Shown one piece after another: positions 1 through 61,335 of a DNA stretch of 64,000 bases; position 1 is the first letter of the stretch, and the number at the start of each line of letters is the position of its first letter. The notes beneath the pieces are model-generated. The model was not told the origin of the DNA and did no database searches. It worked only from the letters and a program-made list of their open reading frames with translations. A program made the translations under genes and the position numbers. This DNA is from Rarobacter incanus (GTDB taxonomy: Bacteria; Actinomycetota; Actinomycetes; Actinomycetales; Cellulomonadaceae), in the NCBI RefSeq assembly GCF_006715765.1, contig NZ_VFNV01000001.1:1798001-1862000 (forward strand), read 5' to 3'.

Positions 1-3000
1 CCGGCAAGCAGTTCCACCTCGGCGATCGTCGCCGGTTCGCCGGTGCTGGTCGCCTCGATCACGATGCGGTAGCTGCTGTACGTCCCGGGGTCTTCCACCT
101 GGAAGGGCCTGGTTTGCGTGGCCCAGCGGAATTCCTGGTCAGAACGCGAATCAAGGGTCTTCCACGTGGTTCCGTCATTGGACCCCTGGAGCTTCCACGC
201 CTTGGGGGCCGCGCCGCTTGACGCGTTGGTCAGGGTGTAGCTCTGCACCGATGCCGCCACGGCCTTCGAGGCGAATGTGAGGGAAGCGGTCGCGGAGTTG
301 AGCGCGATTGACGTCGTCGACGAGTTGTCGACGAGCTTGTCGGTTGCGGTTCCATCACTCGCCTGGACAGTCGCGTAGTCCGGGCCGGTCACATCGACCA
401 GGGGCTGGGCGGACTGGGCGGTGAAGGTGCGCTCGCCCCACGTGGTCGGGGTCGCCGACATTTCGAACGACAGCGTGTGATCGCCCGCCGCGTTCAGGGC
501 GGCTTGAGACAGCGAGGCCGTTCCAAGGGATTCGCCATCCAGCGTGGCCGAGGCGATGTACACGTTATCGCGCGAGTTTGCGTTTGCATCGATGGTCAGG
601 TCGCCGTTTTCCCTGTGCACGACGACGTGGTCGTAGAGCGGGGAGCCGATCGTGAATTCGCCCGAGCCGAGCGAAAGCGGATAGAAGCCCAGGGAGGCGA
701 AGATCTGCCACGATGACATTTCGCCGTTGTCCTCATCGCCCGGGTAACCCTGTCCGATTTCGGAACCGACGAAGAGGCGCTGCATGACCTCGCGTACCGC
801 GGCCTGCGTCTTCGACGGCTTGCCCGCCGCCGCATAGATCCACGGGATGTGGTGGGATACCTGGTTGCTCATCCCGAATTCGCCCATCCGCACGTCGCGT
901 GCTTCGAGCATCTCGTGGATGACCCCGCCGTAACCACCCGGCTTGTCGGCCTTCTCCTGGGTGGTGAAGAACGCGTCGAGCTTGTCGATCAGGCCCTGCT
1001 GGCCGCCGTACAGGGCGGCCAGCCCCTCCACGTCGAAGGGAGCGTGGAAGGCGAAGTTCCAGCCGTTGGTTTCGGTGAATACGCCGCCCCAGACCTCGGG
1101 GTCGAACGACGCGGAAGCGGTTGCGAAGGCCCCCGAGCTTGTCTTGCCCTGGAAGAAGCCCGCGGTCGAGTCGAACATGTTGACGTAGTTCTTCGCGCGT
1201 TGGCGCAGGTAGGTCGCCTCCTGCGCGATTTGCGCGCGACGTGCTTGTGGCACCGCGGTGTCGGTTGCAAGCTTCGCGGCCATGTCTGCGAGCGCATTGT
1301 CGTTGATGTAACCCTCCAGCGCCCACGAAACCGATTCCGAGGTTGCCGTCGAGGTGTAGCCGACGAACTGCGACGTATTGAGACCCTTGCGGCCGGTCTG
1401 CGACTGAGGGGACACGACGGTGGCGTTCTTGAGCCCGGCGTCGTATGCCTCGAGCGCGGTAGCGGTGTCAATGGCTCCCGACGTGTACGCCTCGGCGAAG
1501 GACGCGTCCGAAGACGTGCCGGTCATCGAATCCGCGTAGCCGGGGGAGGACCAGCGTGCCACCCAGCCGCCTTCGCGGTACTGCTGCACAAACCCGTCTA
1601 CCAATTCCTCGGCAATGTCGGGGTAAAGGAACGAGTACAGCGGCCAGACGGTGCGGTACGTGTCCCAGAACCCGTTATTGACGTAGATCTTGCCGTCCTT
1701 GATCTGCGCGTTCGTCGTTGTCGCCGTCGCCGATCCGGTCGTAGCCAGCACCGGGGAGGCGTGCTTGTATTCGGGGGTGTTTGAGCCCAGCTGCGACACG
1801 TCCTCGAATTGGGAGTTCGGGTAGAGGTTGAGGCGGTACAGGTTGGAGTAGGTCGTCACCTTCTGGGCGTCCGTGGCGTTAGAATCCGCCAGGTCAATGA
1901 CCCCAAGGCGTGCGTTCCACGCGGCGCCGGCCGCCTGCCGGATCTGGTCGAACGTCTTGCCCGTCACCTCGCGGTCCAGGTTCAACTGCGCCTGGTCCTG
2001 GGAAATGAACGAGGTGGCGATCCGCAGCTCGACCTGCTTGTTGCCGTCCAACTGCACGACTGAAATTTTGCTCGCGGTGCGGTCCGTTCCGGCCGTCGTT
2101 GCGCTTGGAGCGGACGAGTACTTGCCTGCGATGAACATGCGCGTGGCACCGGAGCCGCCGTTCGGATCGACCCACCCGGTCACAGCGCCCGCGGCATCGA
2201 CCGTGAAGCTCCCCTGGCCGCCGACAATGTCGATGAGGGAACGCAGGGTTGTGTCGCCAGACTTGTTGTTGGTGTAGCGGATGATTGCGCCGTGGTCCGT
2301 GGGCGATATTTCGGTGCGCAGATTACCGCCGTCGAGCATCACCGAGTAGTAGTCGGGGCGCGCAATCTCGGTGTCGTGGGAGTATGTCTTGGCGCGCGAC
2401 GAGAGATTGCCGCTGCCGCCCGTGCCGGCCGTATCGGGCATGAAGACGACCTGGTTGCGGTCGCCCATCCACGGGCTCGGCTCGTGGGAGATGCCGAAGC
2501 CGTTGAGCTTATTGGCGCCCGTGGTCGAATCTACGTAGGTGGAGTTCTGATACGAGTATTCCCACCTGCTGGAGCTCGCATCCGTCATGGGGGTGAAGAA
2601 GTTGAAGCCGTTTGGCATCGCGGTGATCGGCAGGTTGTTCCCGCGCGAAAACTTGTCATTGGAATTGGTGCCACGGCGGGTGTCGACGTAGCTGACTAGG
2701 CCGGCGGAGGTGTCGCGGGCTGTCGCATCCGCGATCTTGATGTCATCTACCCAACCGGCAAACGCCGTGGTGGCGGATCCGTTGGGGTTGTCGTACGAGA
2801 TGAGGATCTTCTTGATAGTGCGGCCGGCCAGGCTACCGAGGTCCACGGTGACCTTGTTCCATTGGGAGCCGTACAGCGCCTTTTGCTCCCCGTAGGCGCT
2901 GGCCTTGAAGTCGAAACCGTTGGTGTCGACCAGGCCCTTCGACGACACCAACGTGTTGTCGTCGAGAACCAGGTCGAGCGCCGTGTAGGTCGCCGGATAC

Positions 3001-3905
3001 GTCAGGTCGGTCTCGTCGAGGATGGGGAAAATTGCGTACGACAACTGGGACGAGTCGCCGATGGCGATGTTCTGGTCATCGAAAAGCACCCCCGCACCCT
3101 TGGCCTCCCCCGCCGCGATGTGCGCACCGACGTATTGCATCGATGCCTTGCCGGTGAAACCAGCGTTGACTCGCGCGACCTTCGCGGAGACGGGGCCCGT
3201 GCTCACGGTGGTTTGGATCGGGGAAGGAGATGCCGCATTGGACGTTCCGTCCAGGATTTCCCAGTCGCCTAGCTGAATCATCGAATCGCCGTTGTTGGCG
3301 TCAATGGCGAGCCGGTAGTACGAATACGCGGTGTTGTTGTCGATGTTGTAGGTGAAAGTCGTCAGCTTCGGCGTCGAGGTGGGAAGCTGATCTGCCCGCG
3401 TGTCCAGGGTGTCCCACGAGCTACCGTCGGTGGATCCCTGCACCTTCCAGCTCTTCGGGTTTCGCGCCGGGGAGTCGTCCGCGGTGGTCATCTTGTATTG
3501 CTTCACTACCGCGGGGCTGCTCAACTGGTACTGCAACCATCCGGTGTTGGTCTTGACCAGCCATTTCGTGCTGCTCACGCCGTCCGCGGCTTTAGCAGCC
3601 CCCTCGTTTGGCAGGTTTTCGCCCGATGCGGTGACCGCGGAAACCAATCCGAGCAGGCTGCCCGCCGAGAATTTTTTCCCCGTCACGTTCGTTAATGCGC
3701 CGTAGGCGGTGCCCGTCAGGGGCTGCGCCTCGGAGGCCTCGAAGGAAGTCGAGAAGGTGCCACCCGTAGCGGGGGCAGCCTGCGCGATGGGTGTGGAAAT
3801 GCCCGCCATCGTAACGCCCAGGGCGATGCTGACGCCGAGGGAGATTGTGCGGGCGGAGCGGCCTGCGCGGCCGCGGATCCGCGGCTCGATGCGTTTTCTG
3901 TTCAC
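1..3905 (-). CDS. Secreted GH92 alpha-mannosidase with two discoidin domains (3' end beyond the window)
   Basis: Exo-alpha-mannosidase of glycoside hydrolase family 92, calcium-dependent enzymes that remove mannose from N-glycans or mannans; likely extracellular. The frame is open to the window edge (1301 codons seen, C-terminus missing). The GTG start at 3905 has AGGAG about 9 nt upstream. Residues 1-43 are a signal peptide (basic N-region, hydrophobic core, end AQA). A discoidin/F5-8C carbohydrate-binding domain lies at about 90-200, the GH92 region at about 400-1085 (FSRGNNLP near its start), and the family hallmark GYPGDEDNGEMSSWQIF at about 1050-1066. A second discoidin-like domain starts near 1130. 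A 14-bp inverted repeat lies about 80 bp upstream (see 3986). Family call is firm; linkage specificity cannot be read from the sequence. Confidence 0.93.
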   Translation of the reverse strand, partial: MNRKRIEPRIRGRAGRSARTISLGVSIALGVTMAGISTPIAQAAPATGGTFSTSFEASEAQPLTGTAYGALTNVTGKKFSAGSLLGLVSAVTASGENLPNEGAAKAADGVSSTKWLVKTNTGWLQYQLSSPAVVKQYKMTTADDSPARNPKSWKVQGSTDGSSWDTLDTRADQLPTSTPKLTTFTYNIDNNTAYSYYRLAIDANNGDSMIQLGDWEILDGTSNAASPSPIQTTVSTGPVSAKVARVNAGFTGKASMQYVGAHIAAGEAKGAGVLFDDQNIAIGDSSQLSYAIFPILDETDLTYPATYTALDLVLDDNTLVSSKGLVDTNGFDFKASAYGEQKALYGSQWNKVTVDLGSLAGRTIKKILISYDNPNGSATTAFAGWVDDIKIADATARDTSAGLVSYVDTRRGTNSNDKFSRGNNLPITAMPNGFNFFTPMTDASSSRWEYSYQNSTYVDSTTGANKLNGFGISHEPSPWMGDRNQVVFMPDTAGTGGSGNLSSRAKTYSHDTEIARPDYYSVMLDGGNLRTEISPTDHGAIIRYTNNKSGDTTLRSLIDIVGGQGSFTVDAAGAVTGWVDPNGGSGATRMFIAGKYSSAPSATTAGTDRTASKISVVQLDGNKQVELRIATSFISQDQAQLNLDREVTGKTFDQIRQAAGAAWNARLGVIDLADSNATDAQKVTTYSNLYRLNLYPNSQFEDVSQLGSNTPEYKHASPVLATTGSATATTTNAQIKDGKIYVNNGFWDTYRTVWPLYSFLYPDIAEELVDGFVQQYREGGWVARWSSPGYADSMTGTSSDASFAEAYTSGAIDTATALEAYDAGLKNATVVSPQSQTGRKGLNTSQFVGYTSTATSESVSWALEGYINDNALADMAAKLATDTAVPQARRAQIAQEATYLRQRAKNYVNMFDSTAGFFQGKTSSGAFATASASFDPEVWGGVFTETNGWNFAFHAPFDVEGLAALYGGQQGLIDKLDAFFTTQEKADKPGGYGGVIHEMLEARDVRMGEFGMSNQVSHHIPWIYAAAGKPSKTQAAVREVMQRLFVGSEIGQGYPGDEDNGEMSSWQIFASLGFYPLSLGSGEFTIGSPLYDHVVVHRENGDLTIDANANSRDNVYIASATLDGESLGTASLSQAALNAAGDHTLSFEMSATPTTWGERTFTAQSAQPLVDVTGPDYATVQASDGTATDKLVDNSSTTSIALNSATASLTFASKAVAASVQSYTLTNASSGAAPKAWKLQGSNDGTTWKTLDSRSDQEFRWATQTRPFQVEDPGTYSSYRIVIEATSTGEPATIAEVELLA

Positions 3906-3985
3906 GAGATTGCTCCTGCTGCTGTTGGATTGAACCGGTGAGATACGCCCATGTACCTCACTTCGCGCGAATATATCCAATTCGC

Positions 3986-3999
3986 TGACAACGCTGTCA
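3986..3999 (-). promoter_or_regulatory. LacI-type operator candidate upstream of the GH92 gene
   Basis: TGACAACGCTGTCA, arms TGACA/TGTCA around ACGC. It lies 81 bp upstream of the mannosidase start. On the minus strand it is followed about 13 nt later by GATATAT, a possible -10, so it would overlap the -35 region. Near-identical sites occur at 55118 and 59478 before the two beta-helix genes. LacI-family operators commonly have this central-CG palindromic form; the cognate regulator is not in the window. Confidence 0.6.
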
Positions 4000-49030: not shown

Positions 49031-49819
49031 GTGACTGGAACGGATGGAACTGCCCCGAGCCTTGATCTCGCGGACGCGGCCTTCAGCTACGGGGGACCCC
49101 CCGCGCTCAGCGGCGTAACCGCGCACGCGCGCGCGGGTGACGCGATCGCACTGATCGGACCGAACGGCTCGGGCAAGTCTACGTTGATCAAGGGCCTGCT
49201 GGGCCTGGTCGGATGCGTCAGCGGCACGGTGCGCGTCCTGGGCGAATCTCCCAGGGACGCGCGCCGCCGCGTGGGCCTGATGCCGCAGACGGAAGAACTC
49301 GACCCCGAATTTCCCGTTACCCTGCGGCAGGTCGTCATGATGGGGCGCTACCGGCAGATGGGTGCCATGCGCTGGCCCAGCGCCGCCGACAAAGAAGCCG
49401 TCAAGCAAGCGATAGATCGCGTGGGGCTGAGCGGGCACGAGCGGCGGCGCTTCGGCGAGCTGTCCGGAGGCCAACAGCAGCGCGGGATATTGGCGCGGGC
49501 AATAGTGTCAGGCCCGCGGATTCTGCTGCTCGACGAGCCTTTCAACGGCCTGGATCAGACCAATCGCGATGCGCTCCTCAAACTCGTAAGCGAACTGCGC
49601 GCGGAGGGCGTGACGATCGTGACGTCCACCCACGACCTGCAACTTGCCCGCGATGTTTGTAGCCACGTCATGCTGCTGAATAAGTCCATGATCGCGTTCG
49701 GACCCATCGCGTCAACCCTCACCCTCGACAAAATCGAAACGACCTTCCACGGGCTCGGGGTCGAGATCGACGAACACACCCTGACCACACCCGATCACGA
49801 CCACGGCCGGCACGGATGA
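49031..49819 (+). CDS. Zinc/manganese ABC transporter ATP-binding protein
   Basis: 262-aa ATPase. Walker A GPNGSGKST at about 42-50, Q-loop LMPQTEELD, signature ELSGGQQQRGILARA at about 140-154, Walker B LLLDEPFNGLD at about 163-173, H-loop STHDL. A His-rich end (DHDHGRHG) may help metal handling. GTG 49031 is used; an in-frame GTG at 49013 would overlap the lipoprotein gene by 17 nt. Its TGA overlaps the permease ATG (ATGA). Confidence 0.93.
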   Translation: MTGTDGTAPSLDLADAAFSYGGPPALSGVTAHARAGDAIALIGPNGSGKSTLIKGLLGLVGCVSGTVRVLGESPRDARRRVGLMPQTEELDPEFPVTLRQVVMMGRYRQMGAMRWPSAADKEAVKQAIDRVGLSGHERRRFGELSGGQQQRGILARAIVSGPRILLLDEPFNGLDQTNRDALLKLVSELRAEGVTIVTSTHDLQLARDVCSHVMLLNKSMIAFGPIASTLTLDKIETTFHGLGVEIDEHTLTTPDHDHGRHG

Positions 49820-51000
49820 GCCCGGCGGACATTGCGCAGGTATTCGCGCTTCCCTTCATGGGCAGGGCGCTGCTGGTGGCGGCGGTCATTTCCGTCGCCG
49901 CCGCGATGATCGGCCTGTTCGTGAACTTGCGAAACCTCGAATTCGTCTCCGACGGATTGACGCACTCGGTGTTCCCGGGCCTCGTCATCGGGTACATCGT
50001 GGGCGGCACGGAATGGATGGTGGTCGGCGCGCTCGCGGCCGCCATGATCGGCGCCGTTACGCTGACGGTCCTGGACCGCCGCCATGTTGGATCGGATGCC
50101 GCGGTCGCGGTCGTGCTCACGTCCATGTTCTCGATCGGGGTCGTGCTTGTTTCGCGGCGATCAGGTTACGTCTCGGAGCTGGAACAGCTACTGTTCGGGA
50201 ACCTGCTCGCTATTCCGCCGCAATTGGTCGGACAGATCGTTGCGGTGAGCGCCGCGGCCTGCCTGATCATCGTGATCGGCTGGAAGTGGTTCCTGTTCCG
50301 AGCCTTCGACGCGCGCGGGTTCGCCGCGGCCGGATTCCCGACGCTGCCGTACGACGTGGCGCTCAATAGTGCGGTCGCGCTAATCGTCGTCGCAGGGTCG
50401 CAGGCCATCGGGAATCTGATGGTTTTGGCCCTGATAATTGTTCCCGTGGGGGCGGCGCGCCTGGTTACGCGCAGGGTCCTTCTTATTACCCCGATTGCCG
50501 CTGCGCTGGCCGTCACGGCCAACGCGGTGGGTCTGGTCGTGGGCTTCGATCTATCGGTCAACCAGGACGTTTCGGCATCGCCATCGGCGGTCGCGGTGCT
50601 AACGCTCATAGCCTTCTACCTGGTCATCATGGCCATGGGCCTATTGGCGCGGGCCTTCGCATCGCACGGAAAATCACCGACGAGTTCCCCGTCCCCCCCT
50701 CCCAGCGCCCCCGATCACGATGCGGTTGACCGCGCGGCGGCGCGCGGCGCCGCGTTGTCGGGTGCCGGGGCGTCGGGTGCCGGTGAGGCGGGTGTTGCTT
50801 CGGCGGATGGTGCGATGTCGGATGCCGGTGTGCCGGGTGCCGGTGCGGCGGGTGTTGCTTCGGCGGATGGTGCGATGTCGGATGCCGGTGTGCCGGGTGG
50901 TGCGGCGGGTGCCGGCGCACCTGCCAGGGGCGGAGCCGAAGGCGGCGCAGCCGCCACCGCCACCGCATTCGATGGGGGACGGGAGGAAGGGCGAGGGTGA
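49816..51000 (+). CDS. Zinc/manganese ABC permease with repeat-rich C-terminal tail
   Basis: 394-aa ZnuB-type permease: about seven to eight TM helices fill residues 15-275 (family signature region SQAIGNLMVLALIIVP). The rest, about 290-394, is a polar, Ala/Gly/Ser-rich tail containing a tandem 20-residue repeat (GAGEAGVASADGAMSDAGVP), not part of any transporter family. Start overlaps the ATPase stop, and its stop overlaps the next permease start (GTGA), so four genes form one operon. Confidence 0.9.
   Translation: MSPADIAQVFALPFMGRALLVAAVISVAAAMIGLFVNLRNLEFVSDGLTHSVFPGLVIGYIVGGTEWMVVGALAAAMIGAVTLTVLDRRHVGSDAAVAVVLTSMFSIGVVLVSRRSGYVSELEQLLFGNLLAIPPQLVGQIVAVSAAACLIIVIGWKWFLFRAFDARGFAAAGFPTLPYDVALNSAVALIVVAGSQAIGNLMVLALIIVPVGAARLVTRRVLLITPIAAALAVTANAVGLVVGFDLSVNQDVSASPSAVAVLTLIAFYLVIMAMGLLARAFASHGKSPTSSPSPPPSAPDHDAVDRAAARGAALSGAGASGAGEAGVASADGAMSDAGVPGAGAAGVASADGAMSDAGVPGGAAGAGAPARGGAEGGAAATATAFDGGREEGRG
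50771..50890. repeat. 60-bp tandem repeat, two copies, in the permease tail
   Basis: Same 60-bp unit (GGTGTTGCTTCGGCGGATGG is part) at period 60 nt from about 50771 to 50890; keeps frame and encodes 20 residues per copy. Confidence 0.9.
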
Positions 51001-51900: not shown

Positions 51901-54900
51901 CTATCGCCAAGAGGCCTTGATCTTCTTGACCTTCGCCTTCGACCGGTTACCGGCCTTGTCGTAGGCCCTGACCTTGACCTTCTTCAGGTTCGCCGTGATC
52001 CGGATCTTCTTGCTGGACTTGTAGGTCTTCCACTTGCCCTTGCCGTTCACCTTGTACTGGATCTTCACGACCTTCGACGTTGCGTCCTTCGCGGTGAGCT
52101 TCAGCAACCTGGCCCCCTTGGACCGCTTTTTGAGTGCCTTGGCCTTGATCTTGGCGGGCTTCTTCGTGTCGATCTTCGCCGTTACGGAGTCAATCGGGGA
52201 CGTCTTCGAACCGGAGACCACCCGCGCCTGGACCTTGACGGCCTTGCCGTTGGTCTTGACCTTTACGGGGCCGGTGTAGGTCCGCCACGCTGCCGAGCCC
52301 ACCTTGATCTGCAGGAATCCCGGCGCCGAGGACAGGATCGTTCCCCGGGCCGCAACCGTCACTGCCTTCTTGTACCAGCCACGCTTGCCGTTGGGCTTGG
52401 TGGGGGTGATGCGCACGGTCGCGGAGAGCTTGGTGCCGATCGTGAGCGTGCCCGAAGGGTTTGTGCCCTGGTTGGGGTTGCTCGGATCAGTGCCCGAATC
52501 GGATGGCAGATCAGTGCCGCCGTTGTTGCCGCCGTTGTTGCCGCCGTTGTTGCCGCCGTTGTTGCCGCCGTTGTTGCCGCCGTTGTTGCCGCCGTTGTTG
52601 CCGCCGTTGTTGCCGCCTGTGCCGCCGCCGAGGTCCGGATCGGTGATCTTTCCGGGGTCTCCCTCATTGTCGACGTTGCCGGTCCAGGTTGCGAGCGCGG
52701 ACACGTTGCCCGCTTCGTCAACTGCCCGGACCTTGACCTCAACATTCGTGCCGTTCGGTGGCGTGATAGTGGCCACTCCGGTAGCGGCGTCGACCGCTGA
52801 GGCAGCGAGCCACAGGCTGTTGCCGACCTTGTAGTCGACGTGAATTCTGCTCGCTTCGCTGCCGCCCGCAGTGTCGCTAACCTTCGCCTTGAGCTGGGTG
52901 GCGATCGTGCCTCCCGTGGCGACCTGAACGGTTAGATTCGGCGCCGACACGTCGCCCGCCGTCGAATCATACTGGCGCATCCATTTGGTCTTTTCTTCGT
53001 CTCCGGCTGCTCCGGCGCTATCTGCCTGACCACCTTGGTCGTTGACGATGTGCCGGATCCCGCCGCCCTTTCCTTCAGCAGTACAGTTCGGGTCTGCGGC
53101 GCCTGCGTCAGTCGAGGCACAACCGTTCAACCAACGCGTTACGACTCGCTTGACCGACACGCCTTCTCGTTTTGGTACGGAGACCCCGGTGTGGGCCCAG
53201 ACCGTGTCCGACCAGCGGAAATAGGAATAGACGCCAGCACCGAAAAGCTCATGGCTTTTTACGGATGGGTCGACCTTATAGGCTGCGTACCCTTCGCGAC
53301 CGCGATCTGTCCACTGGTCCTGAGTCTCCGGCTCGTAGGGCAGCTCGTTTTGGTAAAAGATAGTCCGGCCGTTTTCCCCGTTCCAAATGGTTTGGTTTTT
53401 TTGATAGTGCTCGACAAAGAGTCCCAAAGCGGTGACGTTGTTTGCATTGACAAGGAGCCCGGTGCCTGCCTCGTTGTCGTTCCACCGGTAGCCGCTCTTC
53501 ACGCCGCTGTCAAAACCGTGATCGGCGCGCCAAGACCAGATGTTATCGATTTGCGTATGGGGGGAGTTGATCTCAATTGCCGTGTCGACGCTTCCGTATT
53601 GTGCGCCACCAATTCGGATGTAGATATCGGACAGCGTGGTTGGCGTCTTCGGATCGCTGGTTTTGGCGCCCCGCGGCCCGACCTGGATGAGCACGTCCGA
53701 TTTCTTCTCGGTGGGTTCGATCATCAATCCCGAAAGGCTGACATTCGAAACGTCCCCGACTGCAATCACAGCGTTACCGTTCGTGGGGCGTAGGGTCGCC
53801 AAACCAATGCCTAGCACTACCGTGTCTGCGTTTGTGACTTTGAGAGGCTCTGTCACTGAGTATTGGCCGGGGGTAAATAGTATGTGCTTTCCCGCGGCGA
53901 GCGCGCTGTTGGCGGCAGAGGCAGTGAAATTGCTGGGTTGGAACACAACGAAATCGCTCAAAGAAATGCTGGTGCCCTTGCCTGCGCTGGTTTCTGTCCA
54001 TTGGACACCGCTCGCATTCGTGCGCGCGTCCGGCACAAATACCTGGTAACCATCGGCGCTGTCCCAGGTGAGGAAAGGCGCGTCGCGACTAACGGGCGTA
54101 TCGCCGTAGTTCGCGTACTTTGACTGGTCTTTCGTGTCCGCGTTCTGGGCAGAATCCGGGTAACTGTCCGCGGGAGCTCCCGTGACCCCGGAAAACACCA
54201 TGTTCCAAACGGAGCCGTTCCAGGAACCTATTACGGAATCGCGGGTGTACCACTGCTGCTGACCGGCGGCGTAGACCTCACCGTCTACCTTTGAGCTTGC
54301 CATGAAGCCGCCTGAAGCAAAGCCGTAGTACTGGCCAATGAGAGAGAGTTGCCCCTTGATGTGCACGCGCCGTAGCGGAGCGGCTTGCGAGACGGCCCAT
54401 CGCACCGAGTTTGTTGCTGACTGTGCGGCGTTGCCGGTGTCGTAGAAGTCCTGATTCGGAATGGGGTTAATGGCCAGGTTCGACATGCCGCGCCAAAAAT
54501 TGTTGAGCGATCCGGGACTCTTGCAGAGGTCGCTGTCGTATCGGTCGCCAATTGCGCTGCATATGCCCTGATCTTGCGTATCATGTAGTTCCTGTTCGAC
54601 CGATAGCGAACCGTTGATGGTCACGGAATCGGGCGATGCGCCGAGGCCCGCGACGGTCGTGTAGTAACCCACCTCGGACTGTATTGGCGTTGCTGCTGTG
54701 CCATATGTCCCTGGCTTAAAAAAGAACGCTCTTCTTTCTGTGGACCAGTGGTTCGCGTCGCCGGCCATCGAGCTTGCTGCTGCTCGAAGGGTCGATTGAA
54801 TCGAGGGTGCGGGCATAGAGTCGTCAAAGATCGTGACGTTCGAACCGAAGTCAGGGTTCGTTGCATCGGCGAGGGTGTAAGCGGCCTGTGCGGGTGTCGC

Positions 54901-55014
54901 GGCGAGGGTGATGCCCGACGCGATGAGCGCAAGCGCGGCCGTCCCGGCGAGTGATGGTTTAAGCCTGCCTCTGCGGGGGGCTGTCGGTAATGTTCTGCGA
55001 TGGTGTTCGCTCAC
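51901..55014 (-). CDS. Giant secreted right-handed beta-helix protein, paralogue 1
   Basis: 1037 aa, function unknown. In actinobacteria relatives of this type are often auto-labelled 'adenylyl cyclase', a label I find no motif for. Signal peptide 1-45 (ending ATPAQA). Beta-helix region about 50-640: AFFFKPGTYG, SEVGYYT, VTING, LNNFWRGMSN, RWAVSQAAPLRRV, GGFMASSK, VWNMVFSGVTG, TVVLGIGLATL, AIEINS. One Ig-like/Big module follows (about 690-780), then an Asn-Gly linker (about 799-833), then a Lys-rich C-terminal module (about 840-1037). No LPXTG, no TM anchor. GTG 55014 with GAAGGAG 7 nt upstream; a longer ATG (55110) overlaps the operator. Neighbour of its paralogue at 55286. Confidence 0.85.
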   Translation of the reverse strand: MSEHHRRTLPTAPRRGRLKPSLAGTAALALIASGITLAATPAQAAYTLADATNPDFGSNVTIFDDSMPAPSIQSTLRAAASSMAGDANHWSTERRAFFFKPGTYGTAATPIQSEVGYYTTVAGLGASPDSVTINGSLSVEQELHDTQDQGICSAIGDRYDSDLCKSPGSLNNFWRGMSNLAINPIPNQDFYDTGNAAQSATNSVRWAVSQAAPLRRVHIKGQLSLIGQYYGFASGGFMASSKVDGEVYAAGQQQWYTRDSVIGSWNGSVWNMVFSGVTGAPADSYPDSAQNADTKDQSKYANYGDTPVSRDAPFLTWDSADGYQVFVPDARTNASGVQWTETSAGKGTSISLSDFVVFQPSNFTASAANSALAAGKHILFTPGQYSVTEPLKVTNADTVVLGIGLATLRPTNGNAVIAVGDVSNVSLSGLMIEPTEKKSDVLIQVGPRGAKTSDPKTPTTLSDIYIRIGGAQYGSVDTAIEINSPHTQIDNIWSWRADHGFDSGVKSGYRWNDNEAGTGLLVNANNVTALGLFVEHYQKNQTIWNGENGRTIFYQNELPYEPETQDQWTDRGREGYAAYKVDPSVKSHELFGAGVYSYFRWSDTVWAHTGVSVPKREGVSVKRVVTRWLNGCASTDAGAADPNCTAEGKGGGIRHIVNDQGGQADSAGAAGDEEKTKWMRQYDSTAGDVSAPNLTVQVATGGTIATQLKAKVSDTAGGSEASRIHVDYKVGNSLWLAASAVDAATGVATITPPNGTNVEVKVRAVDEAGNVSALATWTGNVDNEGDPGKITDPDLGGGTGGNNGGNNGGNNGGNNGGNNGGNNGGNNGGNNGGTDLPSDSGTDPSNPNQGTNPSGTLTIGTKLSATVRITPTKPNGKRGWYKKAVTVAARGTILSSAPGFLQIKVGSAAWRTYTGPVKVKTNGKAVKVQARVVSGSKTSPIDSVTAKIDTKKPAKIKAKALKKRSKGARLLKLTAKDATSKVVKIQYKVNGKGKWKTYKSSKKIRITANLKKVKVRAYDKAGNRSKAKVKKIKASWR
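52514..52616. repeat. 12-bp tandem repeat encoding an Asn-Gly linker
   Basis: About eight copies of a 12-bp unit (CCGCCGTTGTTG on the plus strand), encoding GGNN repeats between the Ig-like module and the Lys-rich module of the beta-helix protein. Confidence 0.95.
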
Positions 55015-55117
55015 GTGCGGGACTCCTTCAAACCGATGTGACGTTCGCTTCGTTGCGTAGCGTGGGGCGTGGGATTTGGTTGGGGCATGAGCGGCCACGC
55101 TGCTGCTCATGCACCGT

Positions 55118-55131
55118 TGACAACGTTATCA
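55118..55131 (-). promoter_or_regulatory. LacI-type operator candidate upstream of beta-helix gene 1
   Basis: TGACAACGTTATCA, 12 of 14 bases in common with the site at 3986 (TGACAACGCTGTCA). It is 104 bp upstream of the preferred GTG at 55014. Confidence 0.55.
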
Positions 55132-55216
55132 GCAAACGTGAAACGCGGCGACCCCAGCGTGCGTGCAACAAATGAACGTACCCGGTTTGTGGCTGTTTGT
55201 CCGCGCGCGAGGCGGA

Positions 55217-55260
55217 AACGGGTGGGCCCCGCAACCAATCGGTTGCGGGGCCCACCCGTT
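55217..55260 (-). terminator. Perfect 20-bp hairpin after beta-helix gene 2
   Basis: AACGGGTGGGCCCCGCAACC, 4-nt loop, exact complement; 26 nt past the end of the gene at 55286. No T run follows, so it may stop polymerase by strength alone or protect the 3' end. Confidence 0.75.
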
Positions 55261-55285
55261 GGCCAATGACCATTTCGGCAAGGTC

Positions 55286-58200
55286 TCAGACGACCTTCGC
55301 GAGGCGCTTCTTGAGCTTCTTCGCGATTTTCACCTTCGACTTCTTTCCCTTCTTCGAAGCGTTTCCTGCCTTGTCGATGGCATACACCCGCAGTTTCGCC
55401 TTCTTCTTGACGAGCTTGCGGACAATTTTGGCAATCTTCTTCTTCTTGGCCTTGAGCACAATGCCCTTCTTTTTGGCCTTCTTTGCCGTGATGGTCTTCC
55501 ACTTCTTGCCGGGCAACTTGTAGCGGAACTTCAAGACCTTCGAGTGCTTATCCGTCGCGGTGAGACGGATGTAGGCAACCCGCTTCTTCTTCTTGATCTT
55601 GATCTTGACCTTGATCTTCTTCGGCTTGACCTTGTCCACCTTGACCGACTTGCTAACGACAGGTGATGACTTGGTCATCGTGACTGTCCGAGCTTGGATC
55701 TGTGTCTTGCCGTTCGCGGAGACCAGCACGGGGCCCGCATAGGTGTACCACGGGCCGTTCCCCACCTTGATCTGCGCGACGGCACGGGTGCCAGCGGGAG
55801 CGGTTCCGGTAACCTTCACGGTTACGTTCTTCTTGAACCAGGTGTACCCCTTCTTCGGGGCCGCCGGTTTGGTGTGAATCGTCGCCGTGAGCGTCTTGCC
55901 GACAGTGATGGTACCGGGTGGGTTGCTGCCCAGGTTCCAGGGATCGCTCGCCGGCTTGGCAATGGTTCCGGTCCACTGCGCAACCTCGGATACGTTTCCG
56001 GCGGCATCGGTGGCGCGCGCCTTGACGGTGTACGTGCCGTTGTTGGTGAGCGTGATGGGCGTCGAGTACTCCACCCAGCCGTTGCCCAGGTCGTACTCCA
56101 GTTTTGCAACCGCACCGCTGTCGTCGCTTCCCGCGACCGTGAGGGTGACGGCGTTGGTGTACTTGCCGTTGGCATCCGGTGCGCGGTCGGGTGTGATGGT
56201 GGCGCTAGGGCTGGTCGCGTCGGGGAACCTTATTGTTCCGGTCCACGTTTTGACATCGCTCACCTTGCCGGCGCTGTCCGTGGCGCGGGCCTGGAGCGAA
56301 TGCTCACCCTCGGACGTGAACGTTACTGGACCGGTGTATGCCTCCCATTCGCCACCATCGCGCATAACTTCAATCGAAGGCGAAGGATCCTTGTCGTCGC
56401 TTGCGGTGACAGTGAGCTTGACCGAAGTCTCGTATTTGCCATTCGCACTAGGTGAAGACGGGTCCGACGAAATGGTCACCTTCGGTGCCTCCGCGTCCGG
56501 TAGCGACGTGTCGATCTTTCCGGTCCACGTCGCTTCACGCCAGTTCCCCTGCTTGTCGGTAGCCCGCGCTAGCACCGTGTAGGTGCCGTCATCTGTCAGC
56601 TTGAACGGCGCCGAGTAGTCGGTAGTGGCGCCGCCGTTGATTTTGTAGGTGACCTTCGGGTAGCCAGCGTTGGTCGTGACGTTATCCTTAGCAGTAATTG
56701 TCAGCGTGACCTGCTGCCGGAAGACACCATCAGTCGCAGCCTGCGGATCCGAAGTGATCTGCACCGTCGGCTTGGTCGTGTCGGCGGGGTCTGGGTCGGT
56801 TGGGTCCGGGTCGACGGGGTAGACGGGGCCTCCGATGTCCGGGTCGGTGCCCGACTCAGGATCGGTCAGGTCACCGGGGTTGCCGTCCGCGTTGATCTTG
56901 AATGTGCGGGAAGTTCTCGAGACGTTGCCGGCCTCATCGGTGGCGCGCAGTTTGACGGTGTGTTCGCCGCTGGGCGGGTTCAGTAGCCCCTTGCCGGTGT
57001 CTGCATTGATGCCGACGCGCTTCCAGTTCCTGTCGTCGATTTGGTATTCGAGCAGGATCTGGTCATTCGGAGTCTCATTGTCCGTTGCGCTGACCCACAG
57101 GTTCACCGGTGTGGTGTACGTATCGCCATCGTCGGGCGAGGCGGGATCCGCGTCGGTCAAGATCACAGGTGCGATGGAATCGGAATCGGAGTTCCAATCG
57201 AAGTTGGCTAGCCACGATGTGCGATCGTTGTCGTTGACCTTGCCGTTCGCGGTGAGATCGACGTTGGCGGCCTTGCGGCCGATCCGGTTCACCACGTGAT
57301 CGATGGACCCGTAGCCGTTCAAGAACCTTGTCACGGCCGACGTGACGGTCACATTCTCGGCGCGCGGGACGGAGATACCTGTCGAGGCGCTGGGATTGTC
57401 TTGCGCGTCCCGGAAGTATGAATACACGCCGGCGCCCCGGAGGCGGTGGTCCGTGACGTCGGGTGCGACCCGATACGAAGCGTAGCCGTCGCGGCCCTCG
57501 TCCTTGTACTTCGATTGGTTTGGAACTTCGTAGGGGAGTTCGGATTGGAAGAACACAACGTCGCCGTTGTTGCCGTTCCATTCGACCTGGTTCTTGTAGA
57601 AGTGCTCTGCGAACAGTCCGGTCGCGTGGACGCTGTCGCCGTTGACTCGAACGCCAGTTGGCGCGTAGTTGTCGGACCAGCCGTAAAGTCCGGTGCCGCT
57701 CGTCGAATCGCCGGTGCCATGGTCGGCGCGCCAAGTCCAGATGTCATCGAGCAAAACGTTGTCGCTGTTGATCTCGATAGCGGTGTCCGTGCGCCCCTTG
57801 TTCATGCCACCCACGCGGACGAAAACGTCCGACAGCGTGGTCGGGTTGTCGGGGTTGGAGTTGTCGGCGGTGTCGCCCTCACGGACGGGTCCCACCTTGA
57901 TCAGCGAATTGGTAAGGCGTTCGCCAGCATCAACCAGGATGCCCGCGATCTTGACGCCCTCAACGTCCGCGACCTTGATAACCGCGTCAGCATTCCCCAC
58001 CGGGGTTAGCGTCGCAAGGCCGAGCCCCAGAACGACAGTGTTGGCGTTCTTGATCACGATTGAGTGTGAGAGTTTGTAGACATCGGGGCTCAAGATCAAG
58101 TGGTTGCCGGGCGTCTCCAGCCACGCGTTAATGTCGTCAATCGACGTGTCCTTGTTGGCAACAAGGAACTTACTGAGTGAGATTGTCTGCGATGAACCGT

Positions 58201-59377
58201 TCGCGGATGCCGACCAGGTAGTTCCAGACGTGTTCTTTTGCGCATCGGGCACGACAACGGAGTAGCCGCTGGAGCTGTCCCACACGACGTACGGCGCCTC
58301 GCGCGAAACGGAGGTCTTATCAACGACCGTCCACTTGTGCAGGGTGCTTACGTCGGTTGTGTCGTTACTGGTGCTGGTCGGGAAGTCCGTCGCGGACGGA
58401 CCGCCCGTCACGCCCGAGAACACCATGTTCCACACGCCCTTGTCATCGAATTGCTTCGATGTGTCGTTCTGCGTATTGACCGCGCTGTTGCGGAAGAGGA
58501 ACTGCTGCTGGGAACCTGTTTGGATAGAACCCTGAATCTTGCTGTCGGCAATGAAGCCGCCCGAAGAATACTGGCCCCAGTGCGGGTACACACTCAGGTC
58601 ACCGTTGATCTGGACGCGACGCATGGGGGCCGCCTGCGACACGGCCCACCGCATCTGGCCCGCATCGGCGTTGCCCGCCGCCGTAGTTCCGCGGGCAGCG
58701 TCGTCGCCATACGCGAACTGCTTGGGATTGATCGTCATGTTAGAAAGCGAGCGCCAGAAATTGTTGAGCCCACCCGGCGAGAGGCACTTCGATAGGGACG
58801 CGTACTCTTCGGGCGTCAGCGTCTCGATGTAGTTCGAGTCATTGCCTGCGCCCCACGGTTGCTCGCTGCATTTTTGAACTTCCGCAGCCGTGAGCCCCGA
58901 ATACGTGGTCCCGGCGTTGTACTGCTCGCCCTCGACGTGGAGCGCGCCGTTGATGGTCACATCGCCGGGATTCTTTCCCAAACCTGAGATCTGGGTGTAG
59001 TAGCCCACTTCGGAGTTCACAATTTTCGTCGGGTCGTCGGTGGCGCCGTTGTATGACGAGTTCCCGTAGGTACCGGGCTTGAAGAAGAACGCCTTGCGGT
59101 CGGTTGACCAGTGCGTGCCCGCGCTCGCGGCGTTTCGCAGGGCCGTGTTGATGTTCTGATTCGACCACGAACTGTCGAAGATCGTGACATTGCCGCCGAA
59201 CGGATTCGCGGCCATGGGGTCGGCGCCTGAGGCTGCGGCGTGGGCCGGAACGGCGGCGGTGAGCGCGGTCGCCGTGAGCGCCGCGGTCGTCAGGGCCGCG
59301 ATGAGGCGGCGCTTGTGCAAACTTCTGTTGGGTGGTGCCCCACGTCCCGGGGCCCGAGTGCTTCCGAATGCGCTCAC
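55286..59377 (-). CDS. Giant secreted right-handed beta-helix protein, paralogue 2
   Basis: 1363 aa, function unknown, clear paralogue of the protein at 51901 (shared HWSTDRKAFFFKPGTYG, LNNFWRSLSNMTIN, RWAVSQAAPMRRV, VWNMVFSGVTGG, TVVLGLGLATL, WTWRADHG, VTRFLNGYGSIDHVVNRIG). Signal peptide about 1-48 (ending VPAHA). Beta-helix about 55-690; then three to four tandem Ig-like/Big modules (about 750-1150, each ending in a WTGxI-type strand such as ATWTGKID), one or two more than its paralogue. A Lys-rich C-terminal module (about 1160-1363) has QIKVGNGPWYTYAGPV and YAIDKAGNASKK. GTG 59377 with AAGGAG 8 nt upstream is preferred to ATG 59410. Likely exported and wall-retained (inference). Confidence 0.85.
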   Translation of the reverse strand: MSAFGSTRAPGRGAPPNRSLHKRRLIAALTTAALTATALTAAVPAHAAASGADPMAANPFGGNVTIFDSSWSNQNINTALRNAASAGTHWSTDRKAFFFKPGTYGNSSYNGATDDPTKIVNSEVGYYTQISGLGKNPGDVTINGALHVEGEQYNAGTTYSGLTAAEVQKCSEQPWGAGNDSNYIETLTPEEYASLSKCLSPGGLNNFWRSLSNMTINPKQFAYGDDAARGTTAAGNADAGQMRWAVSQAAPMRRVQINGDLSVYPHWGQYSSGGFIADSKIQGSIQTGSQQQFLFRNSAVNTQNDTSKQFDDKGVWNMVFSGVTGGPSATDFPTSTSNDTTDVSTLHKWTVVDKTSVSREAPYVVWDSSSGYSVVVPDAQKNTSGTTWSASANGSSQTISLSKFLVANKDTSIDDINAWLETPGNHLILSPDVYKLSHSIVIKNANTVVLGLGLATLTPVGNADAVIKVADVEGVKIAGILVDAGERLTNSLIKVGPVREGDTADNSNPDNPTTLSDVFVRVGGMNKGRTDTAIEINSDNVLLDDIWTWRADHGTGDSTSGTGLYGWSDNYAPTGVRVNGDSVHATGLFAEHFYKNQVEWNGNNGDVVFFQSELPYEVPNQSKYKDEGRDGYASYRVAPDVTDHRLRGAGVYSYFRDAQDNPSASTGISVPRAENVTVTSAVTRFLNGYGSIDHVVNRIGRKAANVDLTANGKVNDNDRTSWLANFDWNSDSDSIAPVILTDADPASPDDGDTYTTPVNLWVSATDNETPNDQILLEYQIDDRNWKRVGINADTGKGLLNPPSGEHTVKLRATDEAGNVSRTSRTFKINADGNPGDLTDPESGTDPDIGGPVYPVDPDPTDPDPADTTKPTVQITSDPQAATDGVFRQQVTLTITAKDNVTTNAGYPKVTYKINGGATTDYSAPFKLTDDGTYTVLARATDKQGNWREATWTGKIDTSLPDAEAPKVTISSDPSSPSANGKYETSVKLTVTASDDKDPSPSIEVMRDGGEWEAYTGPVTFTSEGEHSLQARATDSAGKVSDVKTWTGTIRFPDATSPSATITPDRAPDANGKYTNAVTLTVAGSDDSGAVAKLEYDLGNGWVEYSTPITLTNNGTYTVKARATDAAGNVSEVAQWTGTIAKPASDPWNLGSNPPGTITVGKTLTATIHTKPAAPKKGYTWFKKNVTVKVTGTAPAGTRAVAQIKVGNGPWYTYAGPVLVSANGKTQIQARTVTMTKSSPVVSKSVKVDKVKPKKIKVKIKIKKKKRVAYIRLTATDKHSKVLKFRYKLPGKKWKTITAKKAKKKGIVLKAKKKKIAKIVRKLVKKKAKLRVYAIDKAGNASKKGKKSKVKIAKKLKKRLAKVV

Positions 59378-59477
59378 GCGACTTGCTCCTTTTGTCTGCC
59401 GATTCAACATCGAACGGCGGCGATGCGGGCGGCCATTGCCCGCCGGGTTTCACCATCGGTGCGGCGCGACTATGCGC

Positions 59478-59491
59478 TGACAACGATGGCA
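59478..59491 (-). promoter_or_regulatory. LacI-type operator candidate upstream of beta-helix gene 2
   Basis: TGACAACGATGGCA, 12 of 14 bases in common with the site at 3986. On the minus strand a TATAGA box (59507-59502) lies just upstream, so a bound repressor would sit across the start of transcription. Located between divergent genes; the DUF885 gene could be affected too. Confidence 0.55.
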
Positions 59492-59640
59492 GGTATATCT
59501 ATAATTGCCTCACGATACTCGAAGTTGCAAAAGATGTGAGAGCAATCGTGAGTGAATGCGTCTATCCTTTAGATGCAGTGCGCGCGCGTGCGGGGGCGGG
59601 GCGCTCGTCGGTAGCAAAGACCTTTGTCACAGGGCAGTAC

Positions 59641-59646
59641 TACCCT
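59641..59646 (+). promoter_or_regulatory. -10 box TACCCT of a probable leaderless transcript
   Basis: TACCCT, 6-nt spacer GGTGAC, then ATG 59653. Confidence 0.5.
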
Positions 59647-59652
59647 GGTGAC

Positions 59653-61335
59653 ATGACAGACAATGACGCGGCAGGGCGCGAGCAATCGGCCATCGATCTC
59701 ATCGCCGAAAAGTGGCTCGACACGGTGGTGACGCTTTTCCCAGAGACCGGCACCTACACGGGCATTGACCCGCTGCCCGACCAGCACGCTGACTTCGGGC
59801 CCGAGGGCACGCAGCGCTACCTCGATGCGGCGAAGGCAACACTGCTTGAGCTCCACGACGCTCGGCCGCGCGATGACGTCGATCGGATCACGAAATTCGA
59901 TCTGGCGGAGCAAATTGGGCTAGAGATCGAGTCGTACGAGGCCGGCTTCCACCTGCGCGACCTCAACGTGTTGGCGTCGCCCGCGCAGGATATCCGGATG
60001 GTCTACGACCTGATGCCAACCGCAACCGAAGATGACTGGGCCGTGATCTCGCGAAGGCTGTCGAATGTTGGGCCGTCCATTCGCAGCTACATCGAAACGC
60101 TGCGGATCGGTATCGCGCGCGGCGTGACGCCCGCGATACGCCAGGTCAACGCGGTCGCGGATCTGGTCCAGACCTATGGAGGCCCGAACGGGTTGTTCGC
60201 GGCGATGGTGGGCGAGGAGAAGACGGCGCCTGCGCACATCCCCGAATCGCTGCGCGCGGATCTGCAGCAAAACGCGGCAAGGGCGGCGCGCGCCTATGAG
60301 GAATTCACCGAATTCTTGCGAACGGATTTGGCGCCCAACGCGACCGCGGACGACGCGATAGGGCGTGAGCTGTATTCGATCGCATCGCGAAAGTTCCTCG
60401 GAACACGCATCGATCTCGATGAGACCTACGAGTGGGGGATCGAGGAACTTGCCCGCATGGTCGCCGAACAGGAAGCCGTGGCCCGGCGCATCGACCCGTC
60501 GCGCAGCCTCGAGAATGTCATCGAATTTCTGGATGCGGACCCGCGGCGTAAGCTCCACGGCAAGGACGCACTGCAGGCATGGATGCAAGAAACGGCCGAT
60601 AAAGCAGTCGCGGATCTGCGCGGGACGCACTTCGACATTCCCGGGCCCGTGCAGAAGATCGAATGCATGATCGCCTCGACCGACGACGGCGGGATCTACT
60701 ACACCGGTCCGTCCGATGACTTCTCGCGGCCCGGGCGGATGTGGTGGTCCGTGCCGCCGGGCGTGGAGGACTTTGCGACGTGGCGCGAGCTGACCACCGT
60801 CTTCCATGAGGGGGTACCCGGACACCACCTGCAGATCGGGCAGGCCGTCTACAACCGCGCGGAGCTCAACGCCTGGCGCCGCCTGCTGGCGGGTACATCG
60901 GGGCACGCGGAGGGCTGGGCGCTGTACGCCGAAAGGCTGATGCAGGATCTGGGATACCTCAGTGACGACGCCGACCTACTCGGGATGCTAGACGGGCAGC
61001 GGATGCGCGCGGCGCGCGTGGTCCTTGACATCGGCGTGCACACCGGCAAACCGAACCTCGACGGCACCGGCGCGTGGACGTTCGAGTGGGCGCTCGACTT
61101 CTTCCGCAAGCACGTTCACATGAACGACGAATTCATCAAGTTCGAGGTCAACAGGTACTTCGGCTGGCCCGGACAAGCGCCGTCCTACAAGGTGGGGCAG
61201 CGGGTTTGGGAACAAATTAGGGACGAGGCCCGCGCCCGCGAGGGGGCCTCGTTCGATCTCAAGAGCTTCCACACGCGGGCGCTCAACGTCGGCTCGGTTG
61301 GTTTGGACACGCTTCGCATGGCGCTGCTTGGGTAG
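59653..61335 (+). CDS. DUF885 family metalloprotein
   Basis: 560-aa cytoplasmic protein of the DUF885 family (M3-like metallopeptidase fold). The zinc motif VFHEGVPGHHLQIG lies at about 383-396, with a second conserved segment SGHAEGWALYAERL at about 416-429 holding the further ligand Glu. No signal peptide or TM segment. GQAPSYKVG and the C-terminal ALNVGSVGLDTLR are also family-typical. Peptidase or amidase activity is unproven in most members. ATG 59653 is chosen over a frame opening at 59332 because a -10-like box precedes it and the upstream frame lacks resemblance. Confidence 0.88.
   Translation: MTDNDAAGREQSAIDLIAEKWLDTVVTLFPETGTYTGIDPLPDQHADFGPEGTQRYLDAAKATLLELHDARPRDDVDRITKFDLAEQIGLEIESYEAGFHLRDLNVLASPAQDIRMVYDLMPTATEDDWAVISRRLSNVGPSIRSYIETLRIGIARGVTPAIRQVNAVADLVQTYGGPNGLFAAMVGEEKTAPAHIPESLRADLQQNAARAARAYEEFTEFLRTDLAPNATADDAIGRELYSIASRKFLGTRIDLDETYEWGIEELARMVAEQEAVARRIDPSRSLENVIEFLDADPRRKLHGKDALQAWMQETADKAVADLRGTHFDIPGPVQKIECMIASTDDGGIYYTGPSDDFSRPGRMWWSVPPGVEDFATWRELTTVFHEGVPGHHLQIGQAVYNRAELNAWRRLLAGTSGHAEGWALYAERLMQDLGYLSDDADLLGMLDGQRMRAARVVLDIGVHTGKPNLDGTGAWTFEWALDFFRKHVHMNDEFIKFEVNRYFGWPGQAPSYKVGQRVWEQIRDEARAREGASFDLKSFHTRALNVGSVGLDTLRMALLG

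Follow-up and report, generated by a model that had tools for sequence, protein, structure and literature searches.

Two adjacent beta-helix proteins of Rarobacter incanus as predicted GH55 beta-1,3-glucanases with operator-like sites of a putative yeast-wall regulon

A window of 64,000 nucleotides from the genome of Rarobacter incanus (NCBI RefSeq assembly GCF_006715765.1, contig NZ_VFNV01000001.1, positions 1,798,001 to 1,862,000) carries two large adjacent genes, here called A and B, whose products (P0001 and P0002, respectively) had been described in a first-pass annotation as giant beta-helix proteins of unknown function. What do these proteins do, and with which other genes do they act? 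Sequence and active site place both in glycoside hydrolase family 55 (GH55), as does the predicted fold for the first, so that their function can no longer be called unknown. Taken as a whole, the evidence makes it very probable that A and B encode secreted, multi-module GH55 beta-1,3-glucanases that would be directed at the yeast wall and whose regulation would be linked to a recurrent operator.

In a phmmer search against the PDB, both proteins matched chains of SacteLam55A, a characterized GH55 exo-beta-1,3-glucosidase from Streptomyces sp. SirexAA-E (PDB 4pew and related entries; PMC10637969, cited throughout from excerpts), with E values of 1.9e-125 for P0001 and 4e-98 for P0002. Pfam gives no match to either helix region at E ≤ 1, which explains the blank annotation. 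An AlphaFold2 model of residues 83-720 of P0001, built from 13 sequences, reached a predicted template modelling score of 0.85 and a mean predicted local distance difference test (pLDDT) value of 78. In line with the fold proposed earlier, it consists of two right-handed beta-helix domains and superposes on SacteLam55A. Ranks 1-9 of a Foldseek search with this model are all GH55, and neither of the outcomes named earlier as refuting, a fold other than a beta-helix or a match to a characterized non-carbohydrate enzyme, was obtained. Structural comparison with VIA-align gave a Z score of 49.0 against 4pew (2.1 Å over 540 residues) and of 23.9-24.6 against three fungal GH55 structures; the best non-GH55 entry listed reached 17.5, over the second helix only. 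The fungal enzymes MnLam55A, PcLam55A and CtLam55 share the fold of the P0001 model and, according to the excerpts of PMC10637969, the same catalytic residues, at only 17-19% identity to P0001 in structural alignment. The earlier expectation of a polysaccharide-active protein is thereby narrowed to a predicted activity on beta-1,3-glucan. To judge from their sequences, A and B would be ordinary GH55 enzymes, further members of a known family in an unusual organism.

The active site can be read against the residues named for SacteLam55A: the general acid E502, the orienting Y505, subsite -1 (W446, D449, E480 and H481), an aromatic block (F152, W444 and W446) and a proposed water-activating relay of Thr149, Ser198, Gln174 and Glu480 (PMC10637969). 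These positions were mapped in an alignment of 116 relatives that includes both window proteins, six pairs of duplicates and a truncated row (L013), the last being a gap in four of the mapped columns. F152, Q174, W444, W446 and D449 are conserved in 116 of 116 rows, E480, H481, E502 and Y505 in 115 (the remaining row is the truncated one) and S198 in 114, and P0001 and P0002 both retain the equivalents of all of these (Table 1). If the mechanism of SacteLam55A is carried over, the active site would be held between the two side-by-side helix domains. A glutamate of the second helix (E589 in P0001, E624 in P0002) would donate a proton to the glycosidic oxygen, and water activated via the serine and glutamine of the first helix and the second glutamate would attack the anomeric carbon from the opposite side, inverting the anomer.

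Glycan-binding helices without catalysis, forming surface adhesins with immunoglobulin-like (Ig-like) modules, would also suit the large, modular, surface-like architecture of both proteins and their basic tails, and could draw on the leucine that replaces the relay threonine in each of them. Such a role is nevertheless very unlikely, as the general acid, the tyrosine, the serine, the glutamine, the second relay glutamate and subsite -1 are all retained in both proteins and in nearly all relatives, and most relatives have the same leucine (93/116, with Thr in 23/116). The Thr149 position, a glutamate in fungal MnLam55A (PMC10637969), is thus variable within the family. Leucine here was considered as a sign of new chemistry and rejected as such, since it is the commoner state. 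The GH55 relay may need no polar side chain at this position, or another residue may serve; the point concerns GH55 as a whole and is not peculiar to this pair.

Because an aromatic block closes subsite -1, the enzymes would more probably act by releasing glucose from non-reducing ends, and the closest characterized relative, SacteLam55A, is exo-acting (PMC10637969). Another mode or substrate within GH55, that is, an endo-beta-1,3-glucanase or an enzyme for a branched beta-1,3/1,6-glucan or a plant glycoside, appears rather unlikely and would affect only the exo and substrate parts of the proposal. It draws on the fact that GH55 includes endo enzymes with the same catalytic and subsite -1 residues (PMC10637969), which retain the aromatic block too. 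Moreover, the alignments show a longer loop in both paralogues than in SacteLam55A, just ahead of the Thr149 position and beside subsite -1, and this loop has a pLDDT under 50 in the P0001 model. The plus-subsite aromatics at positions 194/196 differ as well, being Y/F in P0001, G/Y in P0002 and Y/W in SacteLam55A. A further difference from SacteLam55A is that the window proteins extend past the aligned part, with Ig-like modules followed by a basic tail at the C-terminus.

For predicted exo-acting beta-1,3-glucanases, several of these observations are unfavourable. The relay threonine is replaced in both proteins, common as that state is, and with the long, low-confidence loop the exo or endo mode is not readable from the model. 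Moreover, GH55 also contains a hesperidin-active enzyme (PMC10637969), so that beta-1,3-glucan is not certain as the substrate, and the fold evidence is that of the P0001 model, the paired helices of P0002 being assigned by homology.

Adenylyl cyclase, a label found on some database entries and already held to be unsupported in the first-pass annotation, is vanishingly improbable. Among 18 plasmid records with a relative, three bear this label; the others read glycoside hydrolase family 55 (two), discoidin domain-containing (five), coagulation factor 5/8 type (one), hypothetical (two) and peptidase inhibitor (one), and four list no gene at the relative, the gene table of that collection being incomplete. 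On the other hand, neither Pfam nor NCBIfam gives a cyclase family at E ≤ 1, and fold and active site are those of GH55. With three candidates scored in each genome, P0001 is matched at E ≤ 0.001 in 128 of the 221 genomes belonging to the GTDB family, in some of them only through its C-terminal module. A misleading label is thus replaced by a testable enzyme class in a widespread group.

Table 1. Features of the GH55 locus and of the window (residues numbered on the ATG open reading frames P0001 and P0002)
Feature	Position	Strand	Residues	Remarks
GH55 gene A (P0001)	51901..55014	minus		1037 aa from GTG
Paired beta-helix catalytic region of A (predicted)	52951..54864	minus	P0001 aa 83-720	
Active-site residues of A (by alignment)			General acid E589, Y592; relay S266, Q242, E567; L202 at Thr149; subsite -1 W527, D530, E567, H568; aromatic block F205, W525, W527	
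GH55 gene B (P0002)	55286..59377	minus		1363 aa from GTG
Catalytic region of B (predicted)	57176..59215	minus	P0002 aa 66-745	Basis: homology
Active-site residues of B (by alignment)			General acid E624, Y627; relay S283, Q259, E602; L215 at Thr149; subsite -1 W560, D563, E602, H603; aromatic block F218, W558, W560	
Operator-like palindrome ahead of A	55118..55131	none		TGACAACGTTATCA; 103 bp from GTG
Operator-like site ahead of B	59478..59491	none		TGACAACGATGGCA; 100 bp from GTG
Ig-like module of A	52681..52896	minus	P0001 ~aa 739-810	PF12245, below its cut-off
Gly/Asn-rich linker of A	52507..52632	minus	P0001 ~aa 827-868	By eye
Basic C-terminal module of A	51904..52455	minus		184 aa, net charge +47, isoelectric point 11.5
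Ig-like modules of B	55931..57175	minus	P0002 aa 746-1160	Big_13, NF047446
Basic C-terminal module of B	55289..55930	minus		214 aa, net charge +63, isoelectric point 11.3
Stem-loop between B and A	55216..55259	minus		20 bp; possible terminator
GH92 alpha-mannosidase gene	3..3980	minus		Extends beyond window; F5/8-type domain; putative regulon member
Exact operator just ahead of GH92 gene	3986-3999			TGACAACGCTGTCA

A target for the pair is suggested by the company it keeps in the genome. R. faecitabidus itself is said to lyse yeast, and the polymers of the yeast wall are targeted by the families GH64, GH81, GH30, GH76 and GH92 and by proteases. The window genome (G000) encodes a GH64, two GH81, a GH30, one GH76 and at least six GH92 proteins, together with a protease I-like protein that combines an alpha-lytic protease prodomain with a ricin lectin (its protease domain recognized by eye, and its resemblance to protease I one of domains, without direct comparison). 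Judged by sequence, a lectin-type protease, beta-1,3- and beta-1,6-glucanase families and mannan enzymes co-occur in this genome. The GH30 protein is probably a beta-1,6-glucanase, its best NCBIfam match being endo-1,6-beta-glucanase. Three further genomes were compared, namely R. faecitabidus DSM 4813 (G001), a metagenome-assembled genome (MAG; G002) and Micrococcales bacterium KH10 (G003); GH16 gave no match in the window genome, R. faecitabidus or the MAG, and one in KH10.

The yeast-lytic protease I of R. faecitabidus carries a domain that binds mannose, and yeast walls are attacked in Cellulosimicrobium by a lytic protease working jointly with a beta-1,3-glucanase (PMC1458353, cited from excerpts). 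The likeness of R. incanus to C. cellulans lies in this combination of beta-1,3-glucanases and a yeast-lytic protease, known here from genes, and in CBM13-type lectin domains, which Rarobacter protease I also has (PMC1458353). In contrast, the enzymes reviewed for C. cellulans are endo-glucanases and GH55 goes unmentioned in the text of PMC1458353, and the window pair has no lectin match in Pfam, although the third GH55 protein of R. faecitabidus and one of those of KH10 do. We infer that the pair serves yeast lysis; in this genus its probable substrate would be the beta-1,3-glucan of the yeast wall, reached jointly with the GH64, GH81, GH30, GH92, GH76 and protease I-like proteins. The gene for the protease I-like protein adjoins that for a GH30 protein with ricin domains at G000:C1:1224000-1234000 (L155), with an operator-like site ahead of each.

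This operator-like site is the palindrome TGACAACGNTGTCA. With at most one mismatch, the window genome contains it 25 times on one strand and 22 times on the other, compared with 0 and 0 for a control pattern, the same motif read backwards; the corresponding counts in the three relatives are 25/23 (control 0/1), 9/9 (0/0) and 22/23 (3/0). When two mismatches are allowed, the window genome has 66/72 matches versus 10/11 for the control. The sites ahead of A and B differ from TGACAACGNTGTCA by one mismatch each. In a scan with a matrix built from 18 sites, the GH55 sites excluded, the best sites ahead of P0001 and P0002 lie at the sampling floor, with E ≤ about 0.00075 per 300-bp region scored. 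That these matches are accidental and the GH55 genes controlled otherwise is an improbable alternative; it would account for the mismatch in each site and for the finding that GH55 genes in two relatives have a weak site or none, but agrees poorly with the empty control genome-wide and with the near-equal distances of the two sites to their start codons (103 and 100 bp).

Merging the strands of the matches with at most one mismatch gives 29 operator places in the window genome, for all of which the adjoining open reading frames (ORFs) were inspected. Twenty were judged to lie at the start of secreted proteins (signal peptides by eye); in five of these the site overlaps or falls within the longest ORF, and the true start was taken as further down. 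The secreted, operator-linked proteins include those with GH92, GH76, GH81, GH30, the protease I-like protein, both GH55 proteins, PAP2, DUF218 and debranching-like domains, and the GH64 gene has a site with two mismatches. In R. faecitabidus, the 15 places examined of a total of 30 adjoin five GH92 genes and genes for GH64, a debranching-like hydrolase, GH97, CBM6, PAP2 and RCC1-repeat proteins, the others adjoining ORFs without a telling family; one place lies inside the GH97 ORF. One of these neighbours, at L226:973-2880 (G001:C4), combines RCC1 repeats with Ig modules, has a basic end and lies with its start near the operator.

The distribution of the sites suggests a yeast-wall regulon that includes the GH55 pair, which seems to be co-regulated with many of the yeast-wall genes via the TGACAACGNTGTCA operators. 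From the form of the motif, a protein of the LacI family perhaps reads it. The window genome has four genes with a LacI-type helix-turn-helix, and a candidate among them (G000:C1:1664209-1665264) lies directly behind a GH92 cluster. This region, G000:C1:1646853-1665264 (L157, L139, L218), holds three GH92 genes interspersed with several operators; the LacI-family gene comes after them. In a literature text search, two 14-base forms of the motif were not found, and its 12-base core turned up in two papers, which by their titles deal with other subjects.

For the regulatory and yeast-wall parts of the proposal there is also evidence on the other side. Of the 29 operator places, nine belong to no secreted gene: they fall within ORFs, ahead of an amino-acid permease or near genes that could not be linked. 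R. faecitabidus and KH10 together gave six GH55 genes for comparison; five of these lack a site (lowest E 0.22-0.86 per region), and a weak one (E 0.0068) precedes the remaining gene, the third GH55 gene of R. faecitabidus. The relatives therefore do not share the regulatory link of the pair. Likewise, no site with at most one mismatch lies near the ORF for a protease I-like lectin protein in R. faecitabidus (G001:C2), and the GH30 match reaches 224 bits against a cut-off of 700. The motif occurs genus-wide, but only the window species shows it linked to GH55.

Beyond the catalytic region, the earlier description had assigned extra Ig-like modules to the second protein. B indeed has more of them (the NCBIfam model NF047446 matches seven stretches in P0002 and three in P0001), but A carries some as well. 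The C-terminus of each protein is formed by a very basic module (Table 1), whereas the net charge of the catalytic parts is -21 (A) and -23 (B). Beta strands resembling pairs of fibronectin type III (FN3) or Ig domains are predicted for the tail of A, and a Foldseek search with the basic tail returned only generic FN3/Ig pairs with low template modelling scores, so that no ligand can be deduced. The tail is not exclusive to the GH55 pair, an idea that was considered and rejected: the module also occurs on the GH64 protein of the window genome and is matched in 83 of the 220 genomes searched in the GTDB family, and the ends of other operator-linked secreted proteins are basic too. The last 120 residues carry a charge of +27 to +40 in six operator-linked proteins whose ends were reached and of +33 in a seventh, whose sequence stops just before its end. 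Our best guess is that the basic tails probably retain the enzymes on an acidic surface, either the own wall or yeast phosphomannan.

A wider scheme is put forward here tentatively. A genus-wide TGACAACGNTGTCA regulon, perhaps under a LacI-family protein sensing a yeast-mannan or -glucan fragment, might switch on a yeast-dissolving secretome in which shared basic Ig-like tails make a lysis zone, and into which an old GH55 pair was recruited in the window species. If so, the regulon of the genus would cover mannosidases and glucanases, and in the window species also a protease; many of its members would be unrelated catalytic domains with the same kind of linker and basic Ig-like tail; and the cell surface, or bound prey, would become a common zone of lysis. 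GH55 enzymes are of a known kind, and the regulon is the fresher part and worth a test. The analysis provides a gene list for a possible breakdown of yeast walls by Rarobacter, no comparable list having been found in a literature search, together with a putative binding site that can be tested.

The two genes are adjacent paralogues, as the first-pass annotation had it, and lie on the minus strand. From ATG, the ORFs extend over 51901-55110 (A, 1069 aa) and 55286-59410 (B, 1374 aa). Ribosome-binding-site-like sequences, AAGGAG ahead of the GTG at 55014 for A and AAAGGAG ahead of that at 59377 for B, make the shorter products of 1037 and 1363 aa, the lengths originally given, likelier than the ATG versions. 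BLASTP aligns the two proteins with 41% identity over 818 aa (E 3e-176), and a second block of 194 aa, also with 41% identity, lies near the C-termini; all four motifs reported as shared (AFFFKPGTYG, RWAVSQAAP, VWNMVFSGVTG and GLATL) are present in both translations. This similarity is far above chance. Transcription of A and B as one operon is doubtful, given the stem-loop between them and an operator site ahead of each; if the stem-loop is a terminator, A would have its own promoter. The stem-loop is absent from the terminator prediction list, probably because few T come after it, and a promoter scan gave one match, on the plus strand, which is no more than in shuffled sequences.

All four genomes of the genus contain at least two GH55 genes each. 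In a GH55 tree of 111 rows (a quick method with support from the Shimodaira-Hasegawa-like approximate likelihood ratio test (SH-aLRT) only, one of each duplicate pair being dropped), the ten rows of the genus form one clade (SH-aLRT 100). P0002 groups with rows of R. faecitabidus, KH10 and the MAG, and P0001 with rows of KH10 and R. faecitabidus; a single row of the MAG (L010) was left without a placement. The proposed tandem duplication of A and B is supported. A recent duplication, however, is rejected by the tree: both types are present in the window genome, R. faecitabidus and KH10, so the A/B split is older than the divergence of these species. Copies of the B type are also longer in both relatives (1269 versus 1034 aa in one and 1311 versus 1072 aa in the other), so that modules may have been gained by one copy or lost by the other.

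The order DUF885, GH55 B, GH55 A, metal ATP-binding cassette (ABC) transporter is common to the window and R. faecitabidus; KH10 has the same order, but with a third GH55 gene in between and one extra gene ahead of the transporter (flanking genes of the relatives recognized by eye). The three consecutive GH55 genes of KH10 lie at L141:4998-15933 (G003:C5), and in the product of the middle gene CBM5/12 and a ricin lectin take the place of the basic tail. The third GH55 gene of R. faecitabidus (L142:6140-10429, G001:C1) is a 1429-aa ORF composed of GH55, GH64, CBM5/12 and a ricin-type lectin, thus joining two beta-1,3-glucanase families in a single chain. In the window, the gene for the DUF885 protein (59332-61335) is divergent from the GH55 pair, and by eye its counterpart adjoins the pair in R. 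faecitabidus and KH10. On the other side of the pair, the metal ABC permease (49816-51000) ends in about 100 aa of low complexity that are rich in Ala, Gly and Ser.

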